A program made the position numbers and the translations under genes. A DNA stretch of 64,000 nt from Cellulophaga sp. F20128 (lineage in GTDB: Bacteria; Bacteroidota; Bacteroidia; Flavobacteriales; Flavobacteriaceae), in contig NZ_JALKBA010000012.1 of NCBI RefSeq assembly GCF_023015805.1, positions 1-64,000 on the forward strand, read 5' to 3'. Under the pieces are notes generated by a model that made no database searches, was not told where the DNA came from, and saw only the letters and a program-made list of their open reading frames with translations. Positions 23,730 to 59,725 of this stretch are shown piece by piece; position 1 is the first letter of the stretch, and the number at the start of each line of letters is the position of its first letter.

Positions 23730-24117
23730 CCCCAACCAAACCACACCAGAGCTTCTAAAAAGTGGATGGTTTATAAAAAAGAATAGCCACTGCATTGCAG
23801 CGGCCATTCGATTGACTAATCCAAAAAACACAAAAGACGTATTGTTAAGCTGTTCGCATTGATTGTTATTATAAAGGACGCTTAAAAACCCACTTTTGTT
23901 ACAAAAAAATTAAGGTTTAACAAAAACAAAATAAATAGCATGATTTTGTGACCCAAATGTTAATTTATGTTAAAATTACAGTAATGTACTGAATTTAAGC
24001 AGCTTAAAAAATACCGCCTTTTGGCTTATGGCATCGCTCTTATGATTTTGTTAACATATATTTATGTTTTTTTCCAGTTATTTGTGGAACACTTTAAAAA
24101 AAATAAACCAAACACAA
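23730..24117. other. Intergenic region with one imperfect hairpin
   Basis: About 390 bp between the SLC13 gene and the metalloprotease ATG, rich in A/T with no coding frame recognised. It contains the hairpin listed at 23781-23809. No complete TTG/TAnnTTTG promoter for the downstream gene was found by eye. Confidence 0.4.
23781..23809. terminator. Hairpin after the SLC13 gene, possible terminator
   Basis: GAATaGCCaCTGC-ATT-GCAGcGGCcATTC forms a 13-bp stem with two mismatches and a three-base loop. An A-run precedes it and no T-run follows. It therefore looks like an intrinsic terminator only for leftward transcription and would be a weak, U-poor one for the operon it follows. Confidence 0.4.
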
Positions 24118-26574
24118 ATGATTAGAAATTTACTTACCAAATTATTATTGGTCGTTTTCCTTGTCGCTTCCTTTACTACGGTGGAAGCACAATCTAAAAA
24201 GAAGAAAAAAAATAGTAAGAAAGACGAAAAAACGGCTGAAGCAGCTGCTGCTCCAAAGCCAAAAAAAGGTGATATTTTACCGTATGACAAAGTAATCACC
24301 AAAGACGCAAAAACAGATGAAGGTCTATTTAATGTGCACGAAGTAGAAGACAAGCGCTATTATGAGATTCCTGATTCCTTGTTCAACAAAGAAATGTTGA
24401 TGGTTAGTAGAATTTCTAAAACTGCTTCCGGTTTAGGATTTGGCGGTGGCAAAATTAACACACAAATGTTGCGTTGGGAAAAGAAAGACAAAAAAGTACT
24501 TTTGCGTATCATTTCCACGAGTATCGTTGCCGATGAAGAATTACCGGTATATGAAGCGGTAGTAAATTCTAATTTAGAACCTGTTTTATATTCTTTTGAT
24601 ATTGCTGCCTTTAAAAAGGATTCGCTTGCACCTGCAACGGTCATTGAAATTGGTGATTTTTTTGAAAAAGATGTAAAAACAATTGGTTTACCGGAACGTG
24701 CTAGAACACAATATAAAGCAACGCGCTTGGATGAAAGCAGAAGTTATATTGAAAGCATAAAGAGTTACCCTTTAAATATTGAAGCCAGGCATATAAAAAC
24801 CTATTTTGCAGGGAACCCTCCTTCCAATTCGGCTTTAGGGTCTATTACCATAGAAATTAACAATTCTATGATCTTACTACCCAAAGAGCCCATGAAACGA
24901 CGTTATTTTGACGAGCGTGTAGGTTGGTTTGCTCGGAATCAGGTAGATTACGGTTTAAGTGCACAAAAAAGTAAATCGGTTACTTATTTAGATCGATGGA
25001 GATTAGAAGTAAAGGAAGAAGACATCGAAAAATTTAATAATGGTGAGCTTGTAGAGCCTAAAAAACAAATTGTTTACTATGTAGATAGAGCAACTCCAGA
25101 AGAGTGGGTTCCGTATATTAAGCAAGGTATTGAAGATTGGCAAGTTGCCTTTGAAGCCGCTGGTTTTAAAAATGCAATAGTTGCAAAAACACCACCGACA
25201 AAAGAGGAAGATCCAGATTGGTCTCCAGAAGATGTTCGTTATTCGGTTGTTCGTTATTTAGCTTCTCCAATTCCAAATGCAAACGGTCCTCATGTAAGTG
25301 ACCCAAGGTCTGGAGAAATTTTAGAATCGGATATTAACTGGTATCACAATGTTATGACCCTATTGCGCAACTGGTTCTTTGTGCAAACTGCTGCTATTAA
25401 CCCAGAAGCAAGAGGTGTTGAATTTAAGACTGAAATAATGGGCCGCTTAATTCGTTTTGTTTCTTCGCATGAAGTAGGCCACACCTTAGGTTTACCTCAC
25501 AATATGGGGAGTAGTCCTGCTTATCCTGTAGATTCTTTACGATCAAAATCTTTTACTGCAAAGTATGGCACGGCACCTTCCATTATGGATTATGCACGTT
25601 TTAACTATATTGCTCAACCTGGAGATGAAGGTGTTGCTCTTATGCCAAATATTGGAATATATGACAAGTATTCTGTGAATTGGGGATACCGTCCTATACT
25701 AGACAAATCTGCAAAAGATGAAAAAGAAACTTTAGACAGCTGGATTTTAAAACATGCTGGAGATCCATTGTACCGTTTTGGAAGACAACAAGGAAGGGTT
25801 ATTGATCCTAGTTCGCAAACTGAAGATTTGGGAGACGATGCAATGAAGGCAAGTGCCTATGGTATTGCTAACCTAAAAAGAATAGTGCCAAACCTAATAG
25901 AATGGACTGCGGAAGACGGAAAATCTTATGAAGATTTGGATGAATTATACGGTGAAGTTCTGAGCCAATTTAACAGGTATATGGGACACGTTGCCAATAA
26001 TATTGGTGGGGTCTATGAAAATTACAAAACATACGACCAAGAAGGAGCAGTGTATACCCATGTGGCTAAAGAGAAACAAAAAAGAGCCATTGAATTCCTA
26101 TCCGACGAATTGTTTGATACGCCAGAATGGTTAATAGACACCAACATCTTCAACAAAATAGAAAGCTCAGGTGCCATAGCACGAATTAGAAGCACACAAT
26201 CGAGAACTTTGAGTACTATTTTTGACACGACTAAAATGGCTCGCCTTATAGAAAGTGAAGCCTTATATGGTAATGATGCCTATTCGTTATCTACTATGAT
26301 GTCTGATGTTAGAAAGGCTGTCTGGAAAGAATTAAGTACAGGGCGTTCTATTGACACCTACAGACGTAATTTACAACGTACTTATATTGACCAAATGGAG
26401 TCTTTAATGACCAACGACGATGCCAGTCAATCTGATATTACAGCAGTTGTTAGAGCAGAATTAAAAACGCTACAACGATTAGTACGATCTGCCTCTTCCA
26501 ATGCATCAGGAATAAAAAGAGCGCACTTACAAGATATCTTAGAAAGAATTAATCTTATTCTTGACCCTAAGTAA
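24118..26574 (+). CDS. Secreted zinc-dependent metalloprotease (DUF5117/DUF4953-type)
   Basis: About 818 residues from the ATG at 24118. An upstream in-frame ATG at 24064 precedes an implausible n-region. The signal peptide ends TTVEAQ and is followed by a Lys-rich stretch. A DUF5117-like N-terminal domain (about 60-280) precedes the peptidase domain. The zinc motif is SSHEVGHTLGLPHN with His451, Glu452, His455 and His461, the extended HExxHxxGxxH of metzincins, and a downstream SIMDYARFNY resembles the Met-turn. The family is common in Bacteroidota as a roughly 800-850-residue secreted protein. Substrates are unknown. The gene stands alone, bounded by a strong terminator. Confidence 0.9.
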   Translation: MIRNLLTKLLLVVFLVASFTTVEAQSKKKKKNSKKDEKTAEAAAAPKPKKGDILPYDKVITKDAKTDEGLFNVHEVEDKRYYEIPDSLFNKEMLMVSRISKTASGLGFGGGKINTQMLRWEKKDKKVLLRIISTSIVADEELPVYEAVVNSNLEPVLYSFDIAAFKKDSLAPATVIEIGDFFEKDVKTIGLPERARTQYKATRLDESRSYIESIKSYPLNIEARHIKTYFAGNPPSNSALGSITIEINNSMILLPKEPMKRRYFDERVGWFARNQVDYGLSAQKSKSVTYLDRWRLEVKEEDIEKFNNGELVEPKKQIVYYVDRATPEEWVPYIKQGIEDWQVAFEAAGFKNAIVAKTPPTKEEDPDWSPEDVRYSVVRYLASPIPNANGPHVSDPRSGEILESDINWYHNVMTLLRNWFFVQTAAINPEARGVEFKTEIMGRLIRFVSSHEVGHTLGLPHNMGSSPAYPVDSLRSKSFTAKYGTAPSIMDYARFNYIAQPGDEGVALMPNIGIYDKYSVNWGYRPILDKSAKDEKETLDSWILKHAGDPLYRFGRQQGRVIDPSSQTEDLGDDAMKASAYGIANLKRIVPNLIEWTAEDGKSYEDLDELYGEVLSQFNRYMGHVANNIGGVYENYKTYDQEGAVYTHVAKEKQKRAIEFLSDELFDTPEWLIDTNIFNKIESSGAIARIRSTQSRTLSTIFDTTKMARLIESEALYGNDAYSLSTMMSDVRKAVWKELSTGRSIDTYRRNLQRTYIDQMESLMTNDDASQSDITAVVRAELKTLQRLVRSASSNASGIKRAHLQDILERINLILDPK

Positions 26575-49231: not shown

Positions 49232-49627
49232 ATGAAAATATTCGTTTCCATATCAATGTCGTTCCTATTCCTTTTTCAAGGAATAGCGGCCAATATGGAA
49301 GTTTGTGAGCAGATTGAAGAAATATCGCATTTTATTGCGCATTATCAAGACCACAAGGAAGATGATGGATATTCTTTTTTTGAATATGTTTATGAAGATT
49401 ATATAAACGACGATGGAAAAGTGGACAACCACCATCCAGATTCGGAACACGATGATGCACCCGTACATATAAACCACCAATGTTGTCAACACTTTGTGTT
49501 CTTTACACCTTTTCAACCTACGTTAATAAATACGATTTCCCCCGAGGCTAAAAATCAGTATAATCATTACACTTTCCAATTAAATTCCAGATATCTGGAA
49601 TCCCCATTCCAACCCCCAAAAGTATAA
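49232..49627 (+). CDS. Secreted His/Asp/Cys-rich protein, CzcI-like in layout
   Basis: 131 residues from the ATG at 49232. A start at 49160 would precede the signal peptide by 24 residues and overlap the promoter elements. The signal peptide is MKIFVSISMSFLFLFQGIAA. The mature part has possible metal ligands in EVCEQIEEISHFIAHYQDHKED and in a cluster containing HHPDSEHDD and then HINHQCCQH. The layout (small periplasmic protein, early Cys, His clusters, first in an RND efflux locus) resembles CzcI of Cupriavidus. Homology is not proven. A role as periplasmic metal buffer or regulator of the pump is inferred. Confidence 0.75.
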   Translation: MKIFVSISMSFLFLFQGIAANMEVCEQIEEISHFIAHYQDHKEDDGYSFFEYVYEDYINDDGKVDNHHPDSEHDDAPVHINHQCCQHFVFFTPFQPTLINTISPEAKNQYNHYTFQLNSRYLESPFQPPKV

Positions 49628-49744: not shown

Positions 49745-52700
49745 ATGATTAATAAAATCATCTCATTTTCCATTAATAATAAATTTATTATTGGGCTCTT
49801 TATAGTGGTACTTATAGGTACTGGTATTTGGTCTATGGCCACTATAAACTTGGGTTCTGTACCCGATATTACCAACAATCAAGTTCAAGTTATAACAACT
49901 GCTCCCAATTTGGGAACTGAGGATATTGAACAATTTGTAACTTTTCCCGTAGAATTGGCAATGGCGAACCTCCCCGACGTTATCGAGCTGCGCTCGATCT
50001 CTCGTTTTGGTCTGTCTGTAGTAACCATTGTTTTTAAAGACAAAGCAGGCACTTACCTTCCCCGGCAACTGGTACAAGAAAAGTTAACTGAAGTAGCCGG
50101 AGAAATTCCTGAAGGTTTTGGTACACCATTTATGGCTCCAATTACCACGGGTTTAGGGGAAATCTACCAATACACCCTAAAAGTAAAGGAAGGTTATGAA
50201 GAAAAATATGATGCAACGGAGCTCCGTACCATACAGGATTGGATCGTAAAACGTCAAATGGCATTAGTCCCCGGAGTTGTTGAAGTAAATGCTTTTGGTG
50301 GTTTTGTAAAACAATATGAAGTTGCTCTTAATCCGGATAAACTTAAAAGCTTCGGCCTCACTATGAGCCAGGTTTTTGAAGCATTAAAGGTTAATAACGC
50401 AAATACTGGAGGCGCTTATATTGAAAAAAACCATCAGGCCAATTTTATACGTGGCGAAGGCTTGGCGCGTAGCATTTCAGATTTGGAAAATACAGTGGTC
50501 ACTACACAAAATGGAAGCCCTGTTTTAATCCGGGATGTGGCTGAAAAAGTAGGATATGGCAGTCAAGTGCGTTATGGTGCTTTTACACAGGATGGCCACG
50601 AAACTGTAGGCGGACAAATATTAATGCTGAAAGGCGAAAGTCCAAGCACCGTTATAGACAATGTTGAAAAGCGTATAACGGAAATTCAAAAATCCCTGCC
50701 TGAAGGCGTGTATATCGATACGTTTTTAAGCCAAAGCGAGCTTATTGAGAGAACTACAAGTACCGTAAAAACAAATCTAATTGAAGGGGCGCTTATCGTC
50801 ATATTCGTTTTGGTGCTCCTTTTGGGAAGCTTTCGTGGTGGATTGATTGCTGCTTCGATAATACCCTTATGCTTATTATTTGCATTTATTTTGATGAAAC
50901 AATTTGGCATTTGGGCGAATTTAATGTCCTTGGGAGCAATAGATTTCGGAATTATTGTAGATGGTGCTGTGATTATTGTGGAAGGAACGGTTTTTCAGAT
51001 TCATCAACGGATGAAAAAATCCAATGCTATCATAGGACAATCCGAGATGGATGAAATCGCCTATGACTCTTCAAGTAAAATGATGAATTCTGCCTTCTTC
51101 GGTCAACTAATTGTTCTTATAGTTTTTACGCCTATTCTGTTTTTGACCGGTGTGGAAGGGAAAATGTTCCGACCAATGGCGTTTACATTTGGTTTTGCCG
51201 TTTTAGGGGCAATTATCCTTTGTCTTACCTACGTACCGGTGATGTCGTCATTATTTTTAAAACCTGCCAAAAACCAAAATAGTTGGTTTGCTAAATTTGA
51301 AAATAAGATTGATAGAATCAGTAATAAAATTATGGGTGCTTTGAATCGTGCCTATCTTCCCATATTAAATTTTGCACTTCGTTTTAAAGCAGGAGTCGTT
51401 ATAGGGGCGGTTGCGCTATTCTTGATTGCAGGATTTCTTTTCAGTAATATGGGAGCAGAATTTGTCCCGAAATTTGATGAAGGCGATATTGCCTTTCAAG
51501 CATTGATAAAACCGGGGAGCAGTCTTACAGAATCGATTGAAGCTTCAGAGAAACTTCAGAATTTAATCAATGAATTTCCGGAAGTAAAAACGGTAGTTTC
51601 AAGAATTGGTGTGGCAGAAATACCGACAGACCCAATGCCTATGGATATTGCAGATAGTTACATTATTCTTGAAAAGGACAAGAGTAAATGGACATCCGCA
51701 GAAAGTAAAGAAGAACTCATAGAAAAGATTCAAGAAAAAATTTCAGTAGTTCCCGGCGTAAATTTCGTGTTTACCCAACCTGTGGAACTTCGTTTTAATG
51801 AATTGCTGACTGGCGTTCGTGAGGACGTGGCTATCAAATTGTACGGAGAAGATTTGGACGTGTTGGCAGACAAGATACAGGAAATCGCTGCGGTAATACG
51901 TAAAGTTCCGGGTGCAGCAGACCTTAATGTAGAGGCTACAAGTGGTTTACCCCAAATGACCGTGGTTTACAACCGTGCAAAAATGGCACAATACGGTGTT
52001 ACTGTCAATAAACTGAATGATTATGTAAGTGCTGCATTTGCTGGAGAAAAGGCAGGTGTCATATTTGAAGGGGAAAAGCGCTTTGATGTGGTCATTCGTT
52101 TGGCAGAAGAATATCGACAAGATATCAACAGCTTAAAAGATCTTTATATTGATTTGCCAAACGGTGCACAAGTACCCTTAAAGGAAGTGGCTGATATTAG
52201 CTACAAACCTGGGCCAATGCAGATTTCAAGGGATAATACCTCGCGGCGTATTTCGGTAGGGGTCAATGTTCGTGGACGCGATGTAAAATCGATGGTCGAG
52301 GAAATTCAGCAAAAACTGGAAACGGAAGTAAAACTGCCCCCAGGTTATTATGTTACTTACGGAGGGTCATTTGAAAACCTGCAACGAGCATCAGACCGAT
52401 TGATGATTGTAGTCCCAATCGTTCTATTAACAATATTTGTTCTGCTCTACTTTGCTTTGAATTCATTTAAACAAGCTATGATGATCTATATGGCAGTGCC
52501 TTTGGCGGCCATTGGTGGCGTGTTCGTCTTGTTGATTCGAGGAATGCCATTCAGTATTTCCGCAGGAGTCGGGTTTATCGTACTCTTCGGAGTTGCCGTA
52601 TTAAACGGACTCATACTCATAAACAAATTCAATGAACTAAAAGACAGTGGAATGACAGATTTAAAAAAGCGGATATACGAAGCTACGCACGAACGTTTAC

Positions 52701-54160
52701 GTCCAATTTTATTAACAGCCATTACAACAATTATGGGTTTTATCCCAATGGCGATTTCCACCTCTGGAGGTGCAGAAGTACAACGCCCTTTGGCAACAGT
52801 AGTCATTGGAGGAATGATTACGGCAACATTTCTGACTTTGGTGGTTATACCTATTCTTTATTATTGGCTTGAATCGAGAAAGGAACGAAACAATGCTGGT
52901 GGAGATGTAAGCTATATCAACAAATCAACGAACATTGTAACCGTACTATTGATGGTTGGTGGTTTGATGGCTTCTGGAACTGCGTTTGCCCAAAACACCA
53001 GTCCAAATGGCACAATTCCAAAAACCTTGACCGTAGATGAGGCTATTGCGATGGCAAAGCAGAATTATCCATCGCTTAAGGAGAGTCAGGCATTTATTGA
53101 ACGGGAAAAGGCACTAAAGGGAACGAGTTTTGACCTTGGTAGCACACAAGTTTTCACGGGCAAAGAAGAATATGGCAATAATCTTCCTGGCGTACAGACA
53201 ACCGTTGGTGTGCAACAAGGCAACATTGATTTGCTTTCAGGATTTTCAAAATCCAAGTTTTACAAAGAGCGTATTGTCTTGGGAGAAAAGTTTTATGTAG
53301 CCAATGAACAACAGTTGGTGCGCAATGTGATGCAAGCCTACGATCAAATTAATTATTACAAGGCACAGTTGCGTTTTGCAGACCAATTGGACAGTATTTA
53401 TGCCAATTTTAAGTCCGCTGCCCAACTTCGGTATGACACTGGAGAAACAGGCAAGTTGGAATTTATTTCAGCCTCTTCCGAATTTCAACAGATTCAAGTG
53501 TTGAGGCAACAAGCTTTTGATGATATTGAAATTGCCAAACGTGCCTTAAAACAATATTTGGGAACGGATGAAACCATCGAGACGGTAGATGGTTTTTACG
53601 AGCCATTGGATTTTATGGCGACATTGGATTCAACTTCGGTTGCCAATAACCCAATGTTGCAATATGCCTTGCAAAATGCCGAAGTAAGTAAAGCAAATGT
53701 GGGCGTTGAAAAATCGCAATTCCTACCGAAATTCAGTTTATCATATGGCAGGCAGGTTGTGGATGATGTTTCAGGGTTTAATACCTATCAGGCAGGTATT
53801 AGTATTCCGTTATGGTTTTTTCCGCAGAAGTCAAGGGTTAAGGCAGCCAAGGCAGACGCAATGGTAGCAGAGAATCAATATTTGGAGCAAAAAGCGGTTA
53901 CAGAAAGTCGTGTTTCACAATTGACCAAATCACTCGAAAAAACAAAGAAGATTTTGCAATATTACGAAGAAGGCGCACTATTGTTGGCAGAAGAACAAAT
54001 TACCACAGCGCAGTTGGCTTCTAAAGAAGGCGAAATAGATTACGTCAATTATATCACCATTCTTAATAGTGCCATCCGTATTAAACAAAACCATTTACAA
54101 TACATCAATCAGTATAACCAGCAGACCATTGATATGCAATATCAATTGGGCAATTTATAA
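49745..54160 (+). CDS. CzcA/CusA-type RND metal efflux pump fused to a TolC-like outer-membrane factor
   Basis: 1471 residues; ordinary CzcA proteins have about 1040. Residues 1-1050 form a heavy-metal RND pump with 12 membrane helices and two large periplasmic loops. The family signature GAIDFGIIVDGAVIIVEG gives Asp400, Asp406 and Glu413, matching the proton-relay triad of CzcA. Residues about 1060-1082 (VTVLLMVGGLMASGTAFAQ) look like a complete Sec signal peptide. Residues about 1090-1471 are a TolC-family domain (LTVDEAIAMAKQNYPSLKES, then long coiled-coil helices). Inner-membrane pump and outer-membrane channel are thus translated together and may be separated by signal peptidase. The adaptor gene follows after 16 nt. 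Divalent cations (Zn, Cd, Co, Ni) or Cu are likely substrates. Confidence 0.93.
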   Translation: MINKIISFSINNKFIIGLFIVVLIGTGIWSMATINLGSVPDITNNQVQVITTAPNLGTEDIEQFVTFPVELAMANLPDVIELRSISRFGLSVVTIVFKDKAGTYLPRQLVQEKLTEVAGEIPEGFGTPFMAPITTGLGEIYQYTLKVKEGYEEKYDATELRTIQDWIVKRQMALVPGVVEVNAFGGFVKQYEVALNPDKLKSFGLTMSQVFEALKVNNANTGGAYIEKNHQANFIRGEGLARSISDLENTVVTTQNGSPVLIRDVAEKVGYGSQVRYGAFTQDGHETVGGQILMLKGESPSTVIDNVEKRITEIQKSLPEGVYIDTFLSQSELIERTTSTVKTNLIEGALIVIFVLVLLLGSFRGGLIAASIIPLCLLFAFILMKQFGIWANLMSLGAIDFGIIVDGAVIIVEGTVFQIHQRMKKSNAIIGQSEMDEIAYDSSSKMMNSAFFGQLIVLIVFTPILFLTGVEGKMFRPMAFTFGFAVLGAIILCLTYVPVMSSLFLKPAKNQNSWFAKFENKIDRISNKIMGALNRAYLPILNFALRFKAGVVIGAVALFLIAGFLFSNMGAEFVPKFDEGDIAFQALIKPGSSLTESIEASEKLQNLINEFPEVKTVVSRIGVAEIPTDPMPMDIADSYIILEKDKSKWTSAESKEELIEKIQEKISVVPGVNFVFTQPVELRFNELLTGVREDVAIKLYGEDLDVLADKIQEIAAVIRKVPGAADLNVEATSGLPQMTVVYNRAKMAQYGVTVNKLNDYVSAAFAGEKAGVIFEGEKRFDVVIRLAEEYRQDINSLKDLYIDLPNGAQVPLKEVADISYKPGPMQISRDNTSRRISVGVNVRGRDVKSMVEEIQQKLETEVKLPPGYYVTYGGSFENLQRASDRLMIVVPIVLLTIFVLLYFALNSFKQAMMIYMAVPLAAIGGVFVLLIRGMPFSISAGVGFIVLFGVAVLNGLILINKFNELKDSGMTDLKKRIYEATHERLRPILLTAITTIMGFIPMAISTSGGAEVQRPLATVVIGGMITATFLTLVVIPILYYWLESRKERNNAGGDVSYINKSTNIVTVLLMVGGLMASGTAFAQNTSPNGTIPKTLTVDEAIAMAKQNYPSLKESQAFIEREKALKGTSFDLGSTQVFTGKEEYGNNLPGVQTTVGVQQGNIDLLSGFSKSKFYKERIVLGEKFYVANEQQLVRNVMQAYDQINYYKAQLRFADQLDSIYANFKSAAQLRYDTGETGKLEFISASSEFQQIQVLRQQAFDDIEIAKRALKQYLGTDETIETVDGFYEPLDFMATLDSTSVANNPMLQYALQNAEVSKANVGVEKSQFLPKFSLSYGRQVVDDVSGFNTYQAGISIPLWFFPQKSRVKAAKADAMVAENQYLEQKAVTESRVSQLTKSLEKTKKILQYYEEGALLLAEEQITTAQLASKEGEIDYVNYITILNSAIRIKQNHLQYINQYNQQTIDMQYQLGNL

Positions 54161-54176: not shown

Positions 54177-55436
54177 ATGAAGAATATACTATTAGTTAGT
54201 ACCGTATTATTTACACTTATGTTTATGAGTTGTAATGATGCCCAAAAATCTGAACTTGGACATAATGAAGCCGAAGGTGTATCAAAGACCAATGAAGTTG
54301 GAGAAGATGCACACGGCGAAGAAGGCCACGTTGAAGGAGAGGAAGAAGGTGGTCACAGCGAGGAAGAAGGCGTTGTAGAACTTACAAAGCAACAAGCTGA
54401 AACCATCGGTTTGGAAATGAAATCTTTGGAGGAACGGAATTTAGGGAACAACATTAAGGTAACAGGTACGCTGGAACTTTTCCCACAGGATAAGGCGAAT
54501 ATCAGTCCGTTTGTTGGTGGAAATGTGAGTTCCATAAAAGTAATACCTGGAGATAATGTAAGTAAAGGACAGGTATTGGCATATATAGAACACCCAGATA
54601 TCATTGCAATGCAACAGGAATATCAGGAAAAAAATGACGAACTGGTCTTTTTGAAACAGGATTTTGAGCGCAAGCAGACTCTTTATGACAAAGGTGTTTC
54701 TTCTGGAAAGGAATTTCAGATGGCGCAGTCAAAATTTCGTTCCACAACATCCAGCGTCAATGGTTTGCGGTCCCAATTGAGACTGTTGGGCATTAATCCG
54801 GACAAAGTGGCTGAAGGCCAAATATATTCCGCTGTTCCCATTACCACACCCATAAGTGGCTATGTGGATGAAGTAATGATTAGCCTTGGCGATTACGTGG
54901 CGCAACAATCCAAAATGTTCTCAATAAGCGATAATTCAAAGATTTATGTCAACTTCAAAATATATGAGAAGGACATAAAGCAAATCAAGAAAGGACAACA
55001 GATATATTTTTCTACGGCCTCTCGTCCAGATGAACTGCTTAAAGCAACCGTTCGGTCTGTGGGTAAAACATTTAACACCGACCCAAAAGCTTTGGAAGTT
55101 CTGGCAGATATTGAAAACGAGGATAAAAACCTATTGCCGGGTATGTACGTGGAAGGGCGAATAGTGCAAGGTGAGAAAAAAGGTTTCGCCGTACCGGAAG
55201 CCGCCGTTATAAAAGAAGGCGAGCAATCCTTTATTTTTATTCTGGATGAAGATGGAGAAATGGAAGCGAACAAAATGAAATTTAAAATGATACCCGTAAC
55301 GGTTGGTATTACTGATTTAGGCTTTGTTGAAGTCAATCTGCCTGCCGAAGTTTCAAAGGACGCCAAAGTTGTCATAAACGGAGCTTATAATCTCTCTTCG
55401 GAAATGGTTAAAGGCGAACTGGAACACGGACATTAA
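54177..55436 (+). CDS. CzcB/CusB-type periplasmic adaptor lipoprotein
   Basis: 419 residues from the ATG at 54177; an in-frame ATG at 54069 lies inside the pump gene. The lipobox is LMFMSC (Cys19). Residues about 28-65 are a His/Glu/Gly-rich segment (GEDAHGEEGHVEGEEEGGH) likely to bind metal. The membrane-fusion core follows: a barrel-sandwich hybrid half (GNVSSIKVIPGDNVSKGQVL), a coiled-coil hairpin (about 145-195), the second half (ITTPISGYVDEVMISLGDYV) and a beta-barrel domain. It bridges the RND pump and the channel and can pass metal to the pump. Confidence 0.92.
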   Translation: MKNILLVSTVLFTLMFMSCNDAQKSELGHNEAEGVSKTNEVGEDAHGEEGHVEGEEEGGHSEEEGVVELTKQQAETIGLEMKSLEERNLGNNIKVTGTLELFPQDKANISPFVGGNVSSIKVIPGDNVSKGQVLAYIEHPDIIAMQQEYQEKNDELVFLKQDFERKQTLYDKGVSSGKEFQMAQSKFRSTTSSVNGLRSQLRLLGINPDKVAEGQIYSAVPITTPISGYVDEVMISLGDYVAQQSKMFSISDNSKIYVNFKIYEKDIKQIKKGQQIYFSTASRPDELLKATVRSVGKTFNTDPKALEVLADIENEDKNLLPGMYVEGRIVQGEKKGFAVPEAAVIKEGEQSFIFILDEDGEMEANKMKFKMIPVTVGITDLGFVEVNLPAEVSKDAKVVINGAYNLSSEMVKGELEHGH

Positions 55437-55544: not shown

Positions 55545-55883
55545 ATGAAGGAAATAAAAGCATTTATAAAACCGAACCGAATCCAAAGAGTCATTGAAGC
55601 ACTATCAGATAATGGATTTAAAAGTATGACCCTTTCACAAGCAGAAGGAACTGGCGCCTTTAAGTCAAAAGGTGCAAGACCGTCGTTGGATTTTCACGTG
55701 ACAGATAGTCCAGTGGTTAAGTTGGAACTGGTCTGCCAAAATGAGGAAGCCCAAGTGGCCATTGAAACAATTATAGCCAACGCCAAAACCGACGGACCTG
55801 GAGATGGTATTATTTATATAGCAAATATTGAAGATGCCTTTCAGATTAAATCTGGAGATTCCTTAAAACGGTACGACCTATAA
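55545..55883 (+). CDS. P-II-like signalling protein linked to metal efflux
   Basis: 112 residues, P-II length. The fold is shown by KEIKAFIKPNRIQRVIEAL at the start and the B-loop TDGPGDGIIYI, and the final KRYDL matches the C-terminal strand. The T-loop region (about 35-55, GTGAFKSKGARPSLDF) is short and lacks the Tyr51 that GlnB/GlnK use for uridylylation. It therefore cannot be controlled in the classical way. A divergent P-II group near CzcA-type pumps is known to me from the literature. Ligand and target are unknown. It probably binds a nucleotide or metal and touches the pump or the Fur genes. Confidence 0.88.
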   Translation: MKEIKAFIKPNRIQRVIEALSDNGFKSMTLSQAEGTGAFKSKGARPSLDFHVTDSPVVKLELVCQNEEAQVAIETIIANAKTDGPGDGIIYIANIEDAFQIKSGDSLKRYDL

Positions 55884-55898
55884 AACACTTTGTTGCAA

Positions 55899-56321
55899 AT
55901 GGAAAAAATAGTCCAACTACTTGAAAGCAAAGGGATACGACCTACGGCTATGCGCCTAATGACTTATAAACGTTTGGTGGAATTAAAGGTAGCCATCAGT
56001 CTTGGCGATTTGGAAAAGGATTTTAAGGTCAGTGAAAGAAGCACCCTATTTAGGACTATGAAAGCGTTTGAAGAAAAAGGTATTGTGCATCAAATTGAGG
56101 ATGGGACAGGTGTTATAAAATACGCCCTTTGCGAAGAAAATTGTGAGTGCGAGGTCGGCAACGACCTTCATTTACACTTTCATTGCAACAATTGTAATGA
56201 AACTGTCTGTTTAACAGAGCATAAAATCCCTCATATCAACTTACCTGATGGCTATATTACCGAGGATATCAACTTGGTGGTAAAGGGCATTTGCGAAAAA
56301 TGCAGCGACAATCTGGATTAA
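55899..56321 (+). CDS. Fur-family metalloregulator 1
   Basis: 140 residues from the ATG at 55899. Two in-frame TTG codons just upstream are less likely. The N-terminal winged helix (GIRPTAMRLMTYKRLVEL, recognition helix SERSTLFRTMKAFEEKGI) is followed by the dimer/metal domain with HLHFHCNNCNETVCL and the second pair CEKC. Both Cys-x-x-Cys structural zinc sites and the His-rich regulatory region are intact. Its place between P-II and SpoIIAA-like genes suggests local control by zinc or a similar metal. It starts 15 nt after P-II. Confidence 0.88.
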   Translation: MEKIVQLLESKGIRPTAMRLMTYKRLVELKVAISLGDLEKDFKVSERSTLFRTMKAFEEKGIVHQIEDGTGVIKYALCEENCECEVGNDLHLHFHCNNCNETVCLTEHKIPHINLPDGYITEDINLVVKGICEKCSDNLD

Positions 56322-56365: not shown

Positions 56366-56728
56366 ATGATAACAATCTATAAAAAAGAGGCTACTGTATA
56401 TATGGTGGCAGAGAATAAGCTGGATGCCAAGGATTATGAAAACTTGATACCGGTCTTAACAGAACATATAACTGCATATCAGGAAGTTTCCTGGTACATT
56501 GAAATGCAAAATTTTGAAGGCTGGACGGTAAGTGCCTATTGGAAGGGCATTGAATTAAATCTTCCGAATGAAACGCATTTAAAGCGTGTTGCTTTAGTGG
56601 GTAGCGTTAAATGGCAGGAGCAATTTACCGAGGCATTGCTTCCTTTTTCAGAAGCTCATATAAAATTTTATAAGCCAGAAGAAAAAGACGATGCCAAAGA
56701 ATGGATAAAAAAAAATAGTAAAAAATGA
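56366..56728 (+). CDS. SpoIIAA-like (STAS-fold) protein 1
   Basis: 120 residues of the SpoIIAA-like family (PF11964 type). The pattern is a short beta start, ENKLDAKDYENLIPVLTEHI, SWYIEMQNFEGWTVSAYWKG, then RVALVGSVKWQEQF and AKEWI near the end. It lacks the phosphoserine context of true anti-anti-sigma SpoIIAA. The stop overlaps the start of the P1B-4 ATPase gene by 4 nt (ATGA), so the pair is translationally coupled. A paralogue occupies the same place before the second ATPase, implying an accessory role in metal ATPase function or membrane association. Confidence 0.85.
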   Translation: MITIYKKEATVYMVAENKLDAKDYENLIPVLTEHITAYQEVSWYIEMQNFEGWTVSAYWKGIELNLPNETHLKRVALVGSVKWQEQFTEALLPFSEAHIKFYKPEEKDDAKEWIKKNSKK

Positions 56729-59253
56729 AAAAAATACAACTAAAAATTCCAGTTATCCTTCCGCAAGTTCCAAACGAAAAAGATACTTGTGTTGAGCGGC
56801 TTATAAAAGAATTACAGGCTAAAGAGGGCATCGAAAAAGTACACGTTGCCGATACAAAGGAAGATGACACACCACAGCTCTGTTTTCATTATGACCCCGA
56901 TATCATTTCTATAGACCGCATTCAATCCCTCGCCGAACGGACTGGTGCTGAAATTACCGAAAAATACGGGCATTTGCTCATTGAGGTTAAAGGAATCAGA
57001 CATACAAGACAGGCACGTTCCATAGAGAAAAGTCTTTTGGCAATCAATGGGGTTTTGGAGGCTTCCGTTTCGGCCTCTGGAATGGTGCGCCTTGAGTTTG
57101 ATAAAAAGCAAACAAATTTTGATGAAATAAGTAAACAGATTGAAAAGGAAGACCTTCAGGTTAAGCGGAGTTCTTCAAACGAAAATAATTACACCGAAGC
57201 ATCCAAAAAAAAACAGGAACGTTCAAAGAAGGAAGATACTAAAGAGCAAACTTCCACAGAGGGCCACGAGCACAAGGAGGGCGAGACCCACGAGGAAGGA
57301 GAAGAGCACGCCCACGGTGGGGTTTTCGGTAAAAATACGGAGCTTATTTTTTCCATTATCTGTGGGGCACTTCTCGGGATAGGTTTCGGGCTTTCTTATG
57401 TGGAATCCATCCCGGATTGGGTCAGTCTTACTTTGTACATTGGCGCGTACTTTTTCGGTGGTTTCTTTACGGCCAAGGAAGCGGTTCAAACTGTGGCCAA
57501 GGGTGGTTTTGAAATTGATTTTTTAATGCTGGTCGCTGCCATTGGTGCCGCCATTCTGGGAGAATGGGCAGAAGGTGCACTGTTGTTGTTTTTATTTAGC
57601 CTTGGGCACGCCTTGGAACATTACGCAATGAACAAAGCAAGAAAAAGCATTGCCGCGCTTGCAGACCTTGCACCAAAAACAGCCTTGCTTAAAAAAGATG
57701 GTAAGACTGTAGAAGTTGGGATTGAGAAATTGAGTATTGGCGATATTATAGTGGTCAAGCCCAATAGTAAAATATCCGCAGATGGCGTCGTGGTCAACGG
57801 AAAAAGTAGTGTAAACCAAGCACCAATTACTGGGGAAAGTGTACCTGTGGACAAAATCCCTGTGGAAGATAAGGACAGAAACTATTCGGCAGACGATGAT
57901 ATCAAGGATGAAAACCGTGTGTTTGCTGGAACTATCAACGGTAATAGTATGTTGGAAATTAAGGTAATCAAAGAAGCCAAAGACTCTACCCTGTCCCGAT
58001 TGGTTAAACTGGTCAACGAGGCGCAGACCCAAAAGTCCCCCACACAGCTGTTGACCGATAAGTTTGAAAAATACTTTGTGCCATCCGTACTGATATTGGT
58101 TGGTGTCTTGCTCTTTGCCTTTCTGGTCATTGATGAACCGTTTAGTGCCAGCTTTTACCGTGCAATGGCGGTATTGGTAGCTGCAAGTCCCTGTGCTCTG
58201 GCCATTTCAACACCAAGTGCCGTATTGAGCGGTGTGGCGCGAGCAGCGCGTGGTGGTGTACTCATTAAAGGTGGGAGACCGCTGGAAGATTTGGGCGAAT
58301 TGACCGCTTTGGCTTTTGATAAAACAGGCACGCTTACCGAAGGCAAGCCCAAACTTACCGAAGTAGTACCATTGGGGGATATTGAAGAAAATGAACTGTT
58401 AAAGATAGCCGTTGCCGTTGAAAACTTGAGCGACCACCCTTTGGCCAAAGCCGTCGTAAGGGATGGGAAAGAGCGTCTGAAAGGTACTGATATTATCGAT
58501 GCGTCAGATTTGGAAGCAGTTCTCGGAAAAGGTATCAAAGCTTCTTTGGGCAAGGATAAAATCTATATTGGAAACCTTGACTTGTACGAAGACCTCGATG
58601 AAGCAAAACCATCCGAAGATATATCGAATAAAGTAAAAGAACTTGAAGGTGGTGGAAATACTACGATGCTCATAAGAAGGAACAAAGAATATATAGGTAT
58701 CATCGCCCTGATGGACACCCCACGGGAAGCGGCCAAGGAAACACTGAAAAAATTAAAGGAAATCGGTATCAAGCGGATGATAATGCTAACCGGGGATAAT
58801 CAAAAGGTTGCCGATGCCGTTGCTAAAGAAATTGGGTTGACCGATGCCTGGGGAAGCCTGTTGCCAGAGGAAAAAGTAGATGCCATTAAAAAATTAAAAG
58901 AACAGGAATCCAAAGTCGCAATGGTAGGCGACGGTGTGAACGATGCCCCTGCAATGGCAAACAGCACCGTAGGTATCGCAATGGGTGCAGCGGGCAGTGA
59001 TGTGGCCTTGGAAACTGCGGACATTGCCCTAATGGCTGATAAACTGGAAACACTGCCCTTTGCCATAGGTTTGAGCAGGAAGGCAAAGGCCATTATCAAG
59101 CAAAACCTTTGGGTCAGCCTCGGTATTGTGGCATTGCTTATCCCATCGACCATTATGGGTTGGGCCAATATCGGTATTGCAGTGGTCATCCACGAAGGCT
59201 CAACATTACTTGTGGTTTTTAATGCGTTAAGGCTTTTGGCTTATAAGAAATAA
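56725..59253 (+). CDS. P1B-type metal ATPase, P1B-4 signature (SPC, HEGST)
   Basis: 842 residues, all catalytic parts intact: TGES (369-372), SPC in the metal-transport helix (Ser488-Pro489-Cys490), DKTGT with Asp532 phosphorylated, SDHPLA, and GDGVNDAP. The last helix has HEGST (823-827). SPC plus HEGxT defines the P1B-4 subgroup (Co and sometimes Zn, Cd, Fe or Cu) rather than the CPC Cu or Zn types. The N-terminus carries two ferredoxin-like HMA-type domains (about 1-75 and 80-150) that have lost Cys-x-x-Cys. A His/Glu-rich linker (about 170-195, GHEHKEGETHEEGEEHAHGG) follows. It exports metal from cytoplasm to periplasm and lies directly after SpoIIAA-like 1. Confidence 0.93.
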   Translation: MKKIQLKIPVILPQVPNEKDTCVERLIKELQAKEGIEKVHVADTKEDDTPQLCFHYDPDIISIDRIQSLAERTGAEITEKYGHLLIEVKGIRHTRQARSIEKSLLAINGVLEASVSASGMVRLEFDKKQTNFDEISKQIEKEDLQVKRSSSNENNYTEASKKKQERSKKEDTKEQTSTEGHEHKEGETHEEGEEHAHGGVFGKNTELIFSIICGALLGIGFGLSYVESIPDWVSLTLYIGAYFFGGFFTAKEAVQTVAKGGFEIDFLMLVAAIGAAILGEWAEGALLLFLFSLGHALEHYAMNKARKSIAALADLAPKTALLKKDGKTVEVGIEKLSIGDIIVVKPNSKISADGVVVNGKSSVNQAPITGESVPVDKIPVEDKDRNYSADDDIKDENRVFAGTINGNSMLEIKVIKEAKDSTLSRLVKLVNEAQTQKSPTQLLTDKFEKYFVPSVLILVGVLLFAFLVIDEPFSASFYRAMAVLVAASPCALAISTPSAVLSGVARAARGGVLIKGGRPLEDLGELTALAFDKTGTLTEGKPKLTEVVPLGDIEENELLKIAVAVENLSDHPLAKAVVRDGKERLKGTDIIDASDLEAVLGKGIKASLGKDKIYIGNLDLYEDLDEAKPSEDISNKVKELEGGGNTTMLIRRNKEYIGIIALMDTPREAAKETLKKLKEIGIKRMIMLTGDNQKVADAVAKEIGLTDAWGSLLPEEKVDAIKKLKEQESKVAMVGDGVNDAPAMANSTVGIAMGAAGSDVALETADIALMADKLETLPFAIGLSRKAKAIIKQNLWVSLGIVALLIPSTIMGWANIGIAVVIHEGSTLLVVFNALRLLAYKK

Positions 59254-59290: not shown

Positions 59291-59725
59291 ATGACCAAAA
59301 CGGAAAAAATATTATCATATCACGGTATTCGCCCTACTAAAATGAGGTCGAAGATATACAAGTTCCTGAAAAGGAAACAAAGTGCCGTGTCCTTTTCCGA
59401 TTTGAAAAAGGCTTTTGTTCAAAAGAGCGAAACCAATAAAACAGCAAACAGAACTACCTTTTATCGCAACCTCAAAATTTTTGAGGATAAAAGGCTAATT
59501 CATCAGATTAATGATGGGGTCGGAGTGGCAAAATATGCGATTTCTGATGAAAACGCCAAAGTTAAATATGGTATAGATTTACATATGCACTTTCATTGCA
59601 CCGATTGTAGGAGAACAATCTGTTTACCGAATAAGATATCGGAAGAAAGCTTGCCAGACGATTATGAAGTGAGCGATGTGAATCTGGTATTAAAGGGAAT
59701 ATGTGAAAAATGCAGGCAAAAATAA
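59291..59725 (+). CDS. Fur-family metalloregulator 2
   Basis: 144 residues, a second Fur-type winged-helix regulator (GIRPTKMRSKIYKFLKRK, then NRTTFYRNLKIFEDKRLIHQ). The metal domain has HMHFHCTDCRRTICL and CEKC. It is recognisably paralogous to regulator 1 (same INDGVGVAKY / IEDGTGVIKY block) but clearly diverged, so the two may sense different metals or bind different sites. It starts 37 nt after the P1B-4 ATPase. A structured intergenic region follows before the permease gene. Confidence 0.88.
   Translation: MTKTEKILSYHGIRPTKMRSKIYKFLKRKQSAVSFSDLKKAFVQKSETNKTANRTTFYRNLKIFEDKRLIHQINDGVGVAKYAISDENAKVKYGIDLHMHFHCTDCRRTICLPNKISEESLPDDYEVSDVNLVLKGICEKCRQK

Follow-up and report, generated by a model that had tools for sequence, protein, structure and literature searches.

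We analysed a stretch of 64,000 nucleotides from Cellulophaga sp. F20128 (positions 1 to 64,000 of contig NZ_JALKBA010000012.1; hereafter the window) and examined a gene at 49745..54160 (+ strand) in which a resistance-nodulation-division (RND) metal pump, a putative internal signal peptide and an outer-membrane factor share one reading frame of 1471 aa, from ATG to TAA. Residues 1-1044 (49745..52876, +) are a CusA/CzcA-type RND pump. The Pfam ACR_tran match is full-length and spans residues 5-1042, the TIGR00914 CusA/CzcA score (1167 bits vs. a cut-off of 701) places the protein in the heavy-metal-efflux RND (HME-RND) family, and the best-scoring solved structures for this part are ZneA (4k0e) and CusA. 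The charged D, D and E residues of transmembrane helix 4 were found at Asp400, Asp406 and Glu413 (50942..50983, +), and we take them, from what is known of CzcA, to be the proton relay. The predicted mature outer-membrane factor comprises residues 1083-1471 (389 aa; 52991..54157, +) and has a TolC/CusC fold. Pfam OEP matched two stretches of the fused protein (the best at 1295-1469), and a profile built from 51 C-terminal halves matched OprM, SilC, CusC and TolC. An AlphaFold2 model of the C-terminal part gave a complete two-repeat outer-membrane factor (mean predicted local distance difference test score, pLDDT, 87.5), with strands at 88-96, 105-117, 284-294 and 297-308 and very long helices at 120-186 and 314-382 (model numbering), the arrangement of TolC and OprM; its structure matches in the PDB are TolC, SilC, CusC and OprM. 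An earlier note on this DNA had described a protein of 1471 residues at 49745-54160 with a full CzcA, the three charged residues and a full TolC-like domain. Its coordinates and length are exact, the residues are as stated, and both domains proved complete.

Close relatives were taken as the best 80 of 127 loci in genome_contigs, all of which match residues 1-1471. The two halves are fused in one uninterrupted frame in 78 of the 80, a sample that favours fused forms because the search used peptides from both halves. The other two loci, L081 and L085, are frameshifted (L081 in the pump half); L085 was considered as a natural split and set aside on account of its frameshifts. Since 78 relatives are uninterrupted and the genome of the window itself contains a second fused copy (56% identity to the window protein), we rejected a stop, a frameshift or an assembly artefact as the source of the fusion.

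The junction between the halves consists, in order, of transmembrane helix 12 (TM12), a charged loop, IVTVLLMVGGLMA, SGTAFA and Gln1083. The loop (residues 1045-1063; 52877..52933, +), which would serve as the n-region of a signal peptide, has a net charge of +2 by hand count, and its charges mostly adjoin TM12. The candidate h-region, recognised in the window and in relatives, is a short hydrophobic stretch from about Ile1064 to Ala1076 (52934..52972, +), followed by a c-region with the predicted signal peptidase I site (52973..52993, +) that ends TAFA|QNT. The segment has the features of a signal peptide: an n-region with positive charge, if only weakly so in the window, an h-region that is short, Gln at +1 and a small residue at both -1 and -3. 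The exception is its location, which is internal (residues ~1060-1082 of 1471) and not N-terminal. Signal peptidase I of Bacteroidetes typically leaves Gln as the first residue of its products, with an average Q-value of 71% across species according to PMC5837995, and a Gln left at the new N-terminus is reported to be converted to pyroglutamate (PMC5837995; PMC10653852). From this Q-rule we predict a cut at Ala1082|Gln1083, between 52990 and 52991, and the N-terminus of the freed channel is expected to be pyroglutamate at Gln1083. Both enzymes are encoded in the window's genome: signal peptidase I (C114, matched twice within a single frame of 565 codons) and glutaminyl cyclase (C59, 282.6 bits). 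A lipoprotein site for the window's channel half was rejected, as there is no Cys at the site. The likeness of the hydrophobic segment ending ASGTAFAQ to a signal peptide had been pointed out in the earlier note, and the h-region at 1064-1076, SGTAFA and Gln1083 bear it out. The mature N-terminus that it proposed, the Asn after FAQ, is probably wrong: the Q-rule places the cut before Gln (AFA|QNTS), and a search for an N-terminal Asn would therefore miss the product.

Junction sites were scored by two motif rules, a loose one (x-x-small-Q) and a strict one (small-x-small-Q, with Ile also permitted at -3). The 36 open reading frames (ORFs) of at least 150 aa in the window contain 70 internal hydrophobic stretches, of which two are followed by a strict site. 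One of the two is the junction of the fused gene. The other, at position 27 of ORF 24064-26574, reads as an N-terminal signal peptide behind a start that was placed too early.

The close relatives and the window together gave 49 distinct junction sequences, with the paralogue L002 omitted; L002 is misaligned at the site in the close-relative alignment and has a motif of its own, VQA|Q. Gln1083 is present in all 49. Position -1 is Ala (Ala1082 in the window) in 48 and Ser in one, and position -3 is Ala in 31, Ser in 11, Val in four, Thr in two and Leu in one. The earlier note had stated that cleavage would be refuted if close homologues had lost the Ala-x-Ala site. The site is kept: 48 of the 49 junctions have Ala, Ser, Val or Thr at -3, and only one departs from Ala at -1. 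The residues directly after the predicted cut are among the most variable. Mean identity of the close relatives to the window is 0.70 for residues 1064-1083, 0.43 for residues 1084-1095 and 0.89 for residues 1096-1471.

Searches at order level, where 152 of 196 genomes gave some kind of match, and at phylum level, where 142 of 198 genomes gave a match at 1e-150 (whether fused or not), extended the comparison; two candidates were scored in most of these genomes, from match lists of limited length, and the counts are not a fused-to-split ratio. Among 216 loci we found 174 fused ORFs, which were thinned to 89 by 5-mer overlap. A loose site follows the hydrophobic stretch in 86 of the 89, a count in which the automatic motif choice sometimes misses the best site (in L091, GFSQ was taken and not AKAQ). 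A uniform rule was then applied to 88 of the 89, L136 being dropped because it is without the anchor motif. The loose site was found at 85 of 88 fused junctions vs. 85 of 1251 control hydrophobic stretches, taken from the pump portions of these proteins, and the strict site at 74 of 88 vs. 31 of 1251. Over the 88 proteins, the net charge of the loop that precedes the junction stretch is +4 at the median and -5 at the lowest. In an alignment of 51 of the 88 available C-terminal halves, which are 13-84% identical to that of the window, Gln1083 is one of only three invariant columns. These comparisons with relatives indicate that the internal segment is a selected signal peptide and not leftover sequence.

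We considered whether the hydrophobic stretch could be an uncut 13th helix, so that the channel stays tethered and the whole chain works across the envelope. Such a helix would give the channel half the identical orientation, the stretch lengths overlap those of pump helices, and RND-type parts are reported to be fused elsewhere, SecD with SecF in Thermus (PMC8277102). An uncut helix has no need of Ala at -1 or Gln at +1, yet both are conserved, and the junction stretch is short for a helix: the median hydrophobic length is 11 at the 88 junctions vs. 17 for the 1251 pump stretches. The geometry also argues against a tether. In the AlphaFold2 model the fold does not include residues 1046-1085, and its first ordered strand is at 1093, which would leave ~10 residues, or at most ~36 Å, between the folded channel and the predicted cut. 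The periplasmic part of the pump itself is situated below the equatorial domain of the channel. According to PMC8277102, the first helix of the outer-membrane factor sits in that equatorial domain, halfway up a 100-Å periplasmic barrel. A channel still tied to the inner membrane by so short a tether could probably not reach this position. With split relatives also in existence (see below), we regard the uncut helix as unlikely.

Some relatives have a pump that stops after TM12 and a separate channel gene, which has a start codon and a signal peptide of its own. A loose site follows the channel signal peptide in all 13 split pairs inside the fused clade; across all 21 separate channel genes examined, 19 carry the loose and 14 the strict site, rates that resemble those of the fused junctions. 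In one further split row, L146, no channel gene was found within the stretch examined. Four split loci of one genus code, L138-L141, have unusual repeat-like sequence (e.g., FANFA..LRTLRL) in the channel N-terminus or the preceding gap, which looks as though the fused gene had been broken up there by a small repeat element. A different way of obtaining a separate channel would be an internal translation start, with the fused protein as a by-product. A Met does occur in the loop before the stretch in 27 of 88 fused relatives, and some of these resemble an old start codon (L110, L115, L131). An internal start may contribute in other species. In the window, the only ATG, GTG or TTG codons within residues 1040-1089 are codons 1069, 1070, 1074 and 1075. 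All lie inside the hydrophobic stretch, and initiation at any of them would leave no working signal peptide; an internal start in the window was rejected on this ground. Met1070 and Met1075 are present in 23 and 24 of the 49 close junctions, respectively. As an account of how the channel is made, this explanation is very improbable.

A tree of the pump part with 122 rows places all 89 fused rows and 14 split ones in a single clade, which has full local support; the all-split groups lie outside it. A second tree, made by another method from 96 rows (26 of the 122 left out), gave the same picture, with 70 fused and 12 split rows in the clade. The fused and split labels imply a minimum of 7 or 8 changes on the tree, six of them forced by strongly supported branches. 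The simplest reading, with the root outside the clade, would be one old fusion followed by several splits. Several fusions may also account for the pattern, given that the tree was rooted at its midpoint and that many of its forks are poorly resolved.

The fused rows span 21 family codes of the sampled phylum. In a plasmid collection, 38 records match at least 80% of the query, and their genera are, judging by the names, presumably all Bacteroidota. Also among the plasmid matches listed, outside of which are 3635 weaker records, are four proteobacterial records (~70% covered) and three Hymenobacter records (68-70%), all of which match the pump alone. A CusA/CzcA-type label is attached to 33 of the 38 records, none is labelled as a fusion, and five are without a feature name. 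Fused proteins 94-98% identical to that of the window (best segment) were found in Aequorivita, Gelidibacter, Nonlabens, Arenibacter and Tenacibaculum (L009-L025, L061, L065, L068, L080 and others). Because such similar proteins occur across different genera, we suggest horizontal transfer of the pump operon between genera.

Loss of a stop codon between adjacent genes is the likely origin of the fusion, and neighbouring split genes do exist. On that basis the signal peptide could be a passive relic of the gene fusion, with the C-terminal half degraded or unused. We give this possibility hardly any credence. The site is still kept in fused forms across the 21 family codes and in channel halves of as little as 13% identity, the channel half averages 0.89 identity to the window in close relatives, and the gene for the third component of such a pump has been retained beside it. 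This separate periplasmic adaptor (54177..55436, +), with an RND_mfp match above cut-off and a lipoprotein-like start, begins 16 bases downstream of the fused gene and is kept in 79 of 80 related loci.

Other genes flank the pump and adaptor genes. Upstream, 49232-49627 (+) encodes a small His/Asp-rich protein with a signal-peptide-like start, and a similar ORF is found in 59 of the 80 related loci. It has no match in Pfam or NCBIfam and is perhaps a periplasmic metal binder or sensor. After the adaptor gene come a P-II-like protein (55545-55883, +; Pfam P-II) and a weakly Fur/PerR-like regulator that scores below cut-off (55890-56321, +), each in 77 of the 80 loci. A ZntA-like P-type ATPase (56725-59253) lies downstream of the regulator, and an ORF at 59291-59725 resembles the latter by eye. 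As ZneA is the best-scoring solved relative of the pump and a ZntA-like ATPase and weak Fur/PerR-like matches are nearby, our guess for the transported substrate is zinc or a similar divalent metal.

Taken together, we consider it highly probable that the product of the gene is a polyprotein in two parts, both serving a single tripartite metal efflux pump, and that it is processed at the internal signal peptide. Residues 1-1044 would enter the membrane as an RND pump of 12 helices and leave its C-terminus in the cytoplasm, a topology that we infer from the family. The loop and the hydrophobic stretch would then act as an internal Sec signal peptide that re-opens the translocon, and residues 1083-1471 would enter the periplasm. 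Signal peptidase I would free the channel by cutting at Ala1082|Gln1083, glutaminyl cyclase would cap the new channel N-terminus as pyroglutamate, and the freed channel, as a trimer, would reach the outer membrane. The pump would keep the signal peptide as an additional, 13th helix that ends on the periplasmic side. One gene would thereby yield pump and channel in equal numbers at one place, with the adaptor supplied from the next gene. In the 3:6:3 models described in PMC4446572, pump and channel are both trimers, and a 1:1 supply would fit since both act in that form. The earlier note had proposed that the internal segment re-exports the TolC part and that signal peptidase cuts the chain in two. 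Site conservation, the length of the stretch, the natural splits and the geometry all support this idea, and cleavage itself is what they lead us to infer.

Several observations weigh against polyprotein processing. Conservation shows the site to be important, which does not mean that every chain is cut. The last 12 residues before the window's hydrophobic stretch have a net charge of 0, its n-region is only weakly positive, and the overlap in length between junction stretches and pump helices applies here too. Junction stretches are also slightly longer than those in the signal peptides of the 13 split channels (median 11 vs. 9, p ~1e-4). The strict rule is failed by 14 of the 88 fused junctions; it is an insensitive detector, which picks up just 6 of the 19 N-terminal stretches of window ORFs. 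Three of the 89 fused relatives are without Q, namely L186 (LYG|K), L188 (AEA|C) and L192 (AHA|D), the last of which is still a standard signal peptidase site, and two split relatives, L199 and L200, are likewise without a Q site. In L199 and L200, the pump and channel are in the same frame with a single TAA between them. The internal signal peptide of L188, ending AEAC, could be a lipoprotein-type site; some outer-membrane channels of other bacteria are lipid-anchored, e.g., OprM (PMC8277102).

More broadly, the fused relatives may represent a Bacteroidota-wide class of inner/outer-membrane polyprotein pumps, in which the internal signal peptide routes the halves, signal peptidase I separates them and a stable 13th helix puts the pump C-terminus in the periplasm, the fusion having been kept since a near-basal ancestor for equal supply and local assembly. 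We judge the case for and against this wider proposal to be about evenly balanced. If processing occurs as proposed, annotations as CusA/CzcA only would hide the channel half, and proteomics should show that a single gene yields two products. The system would then offer a test of signal peptidase I on internal signal peptides and of the worth of a fixed pump-to-channel ratio.

Well-studied tripartite pumps are assembled from three separately made proteins, whereas here two of the three would come from one chain, which would have to be cleaved before its parts could arrive in two different membranes. The system resembles CzcCBA, CusCBA and ZneCBA in its pump family (TIGR00914), channel fold and adjacent adaptor gene, and differs from them in that their pump and outer-membrane factor are separate, as also seen in the split relatives. 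Our literature search, outside of which lie most subscription journals, returned no description of an RND-outer-membrane factor fusion or of its internal signal peptide, and no paper on FbcH. The nearest mechanism that we are aware of is that of the FbcH precursor of Bradyrhizobium japonicum (cytochrome b/c1), in which a polytopic membrane protein and an exported partner are likewise cut apart at an internal signal sequence. Both FbcH products remain in one inner-membrane complex, whereas one product here is predicted for the outer membrane; the phylum and the Q-rule site differ as well. With Bacteroidetes Q-rule substrates the window protein shares a Gln directly after the cleavage site, but the substrates described in the available text of PMC5837995 have N-terminal signal peptides, and the site in the window lies 1082 residues inside the chain. 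The parts are thus known ones, and their arrangement, two membranes served by one cut chain, would be a new variation.

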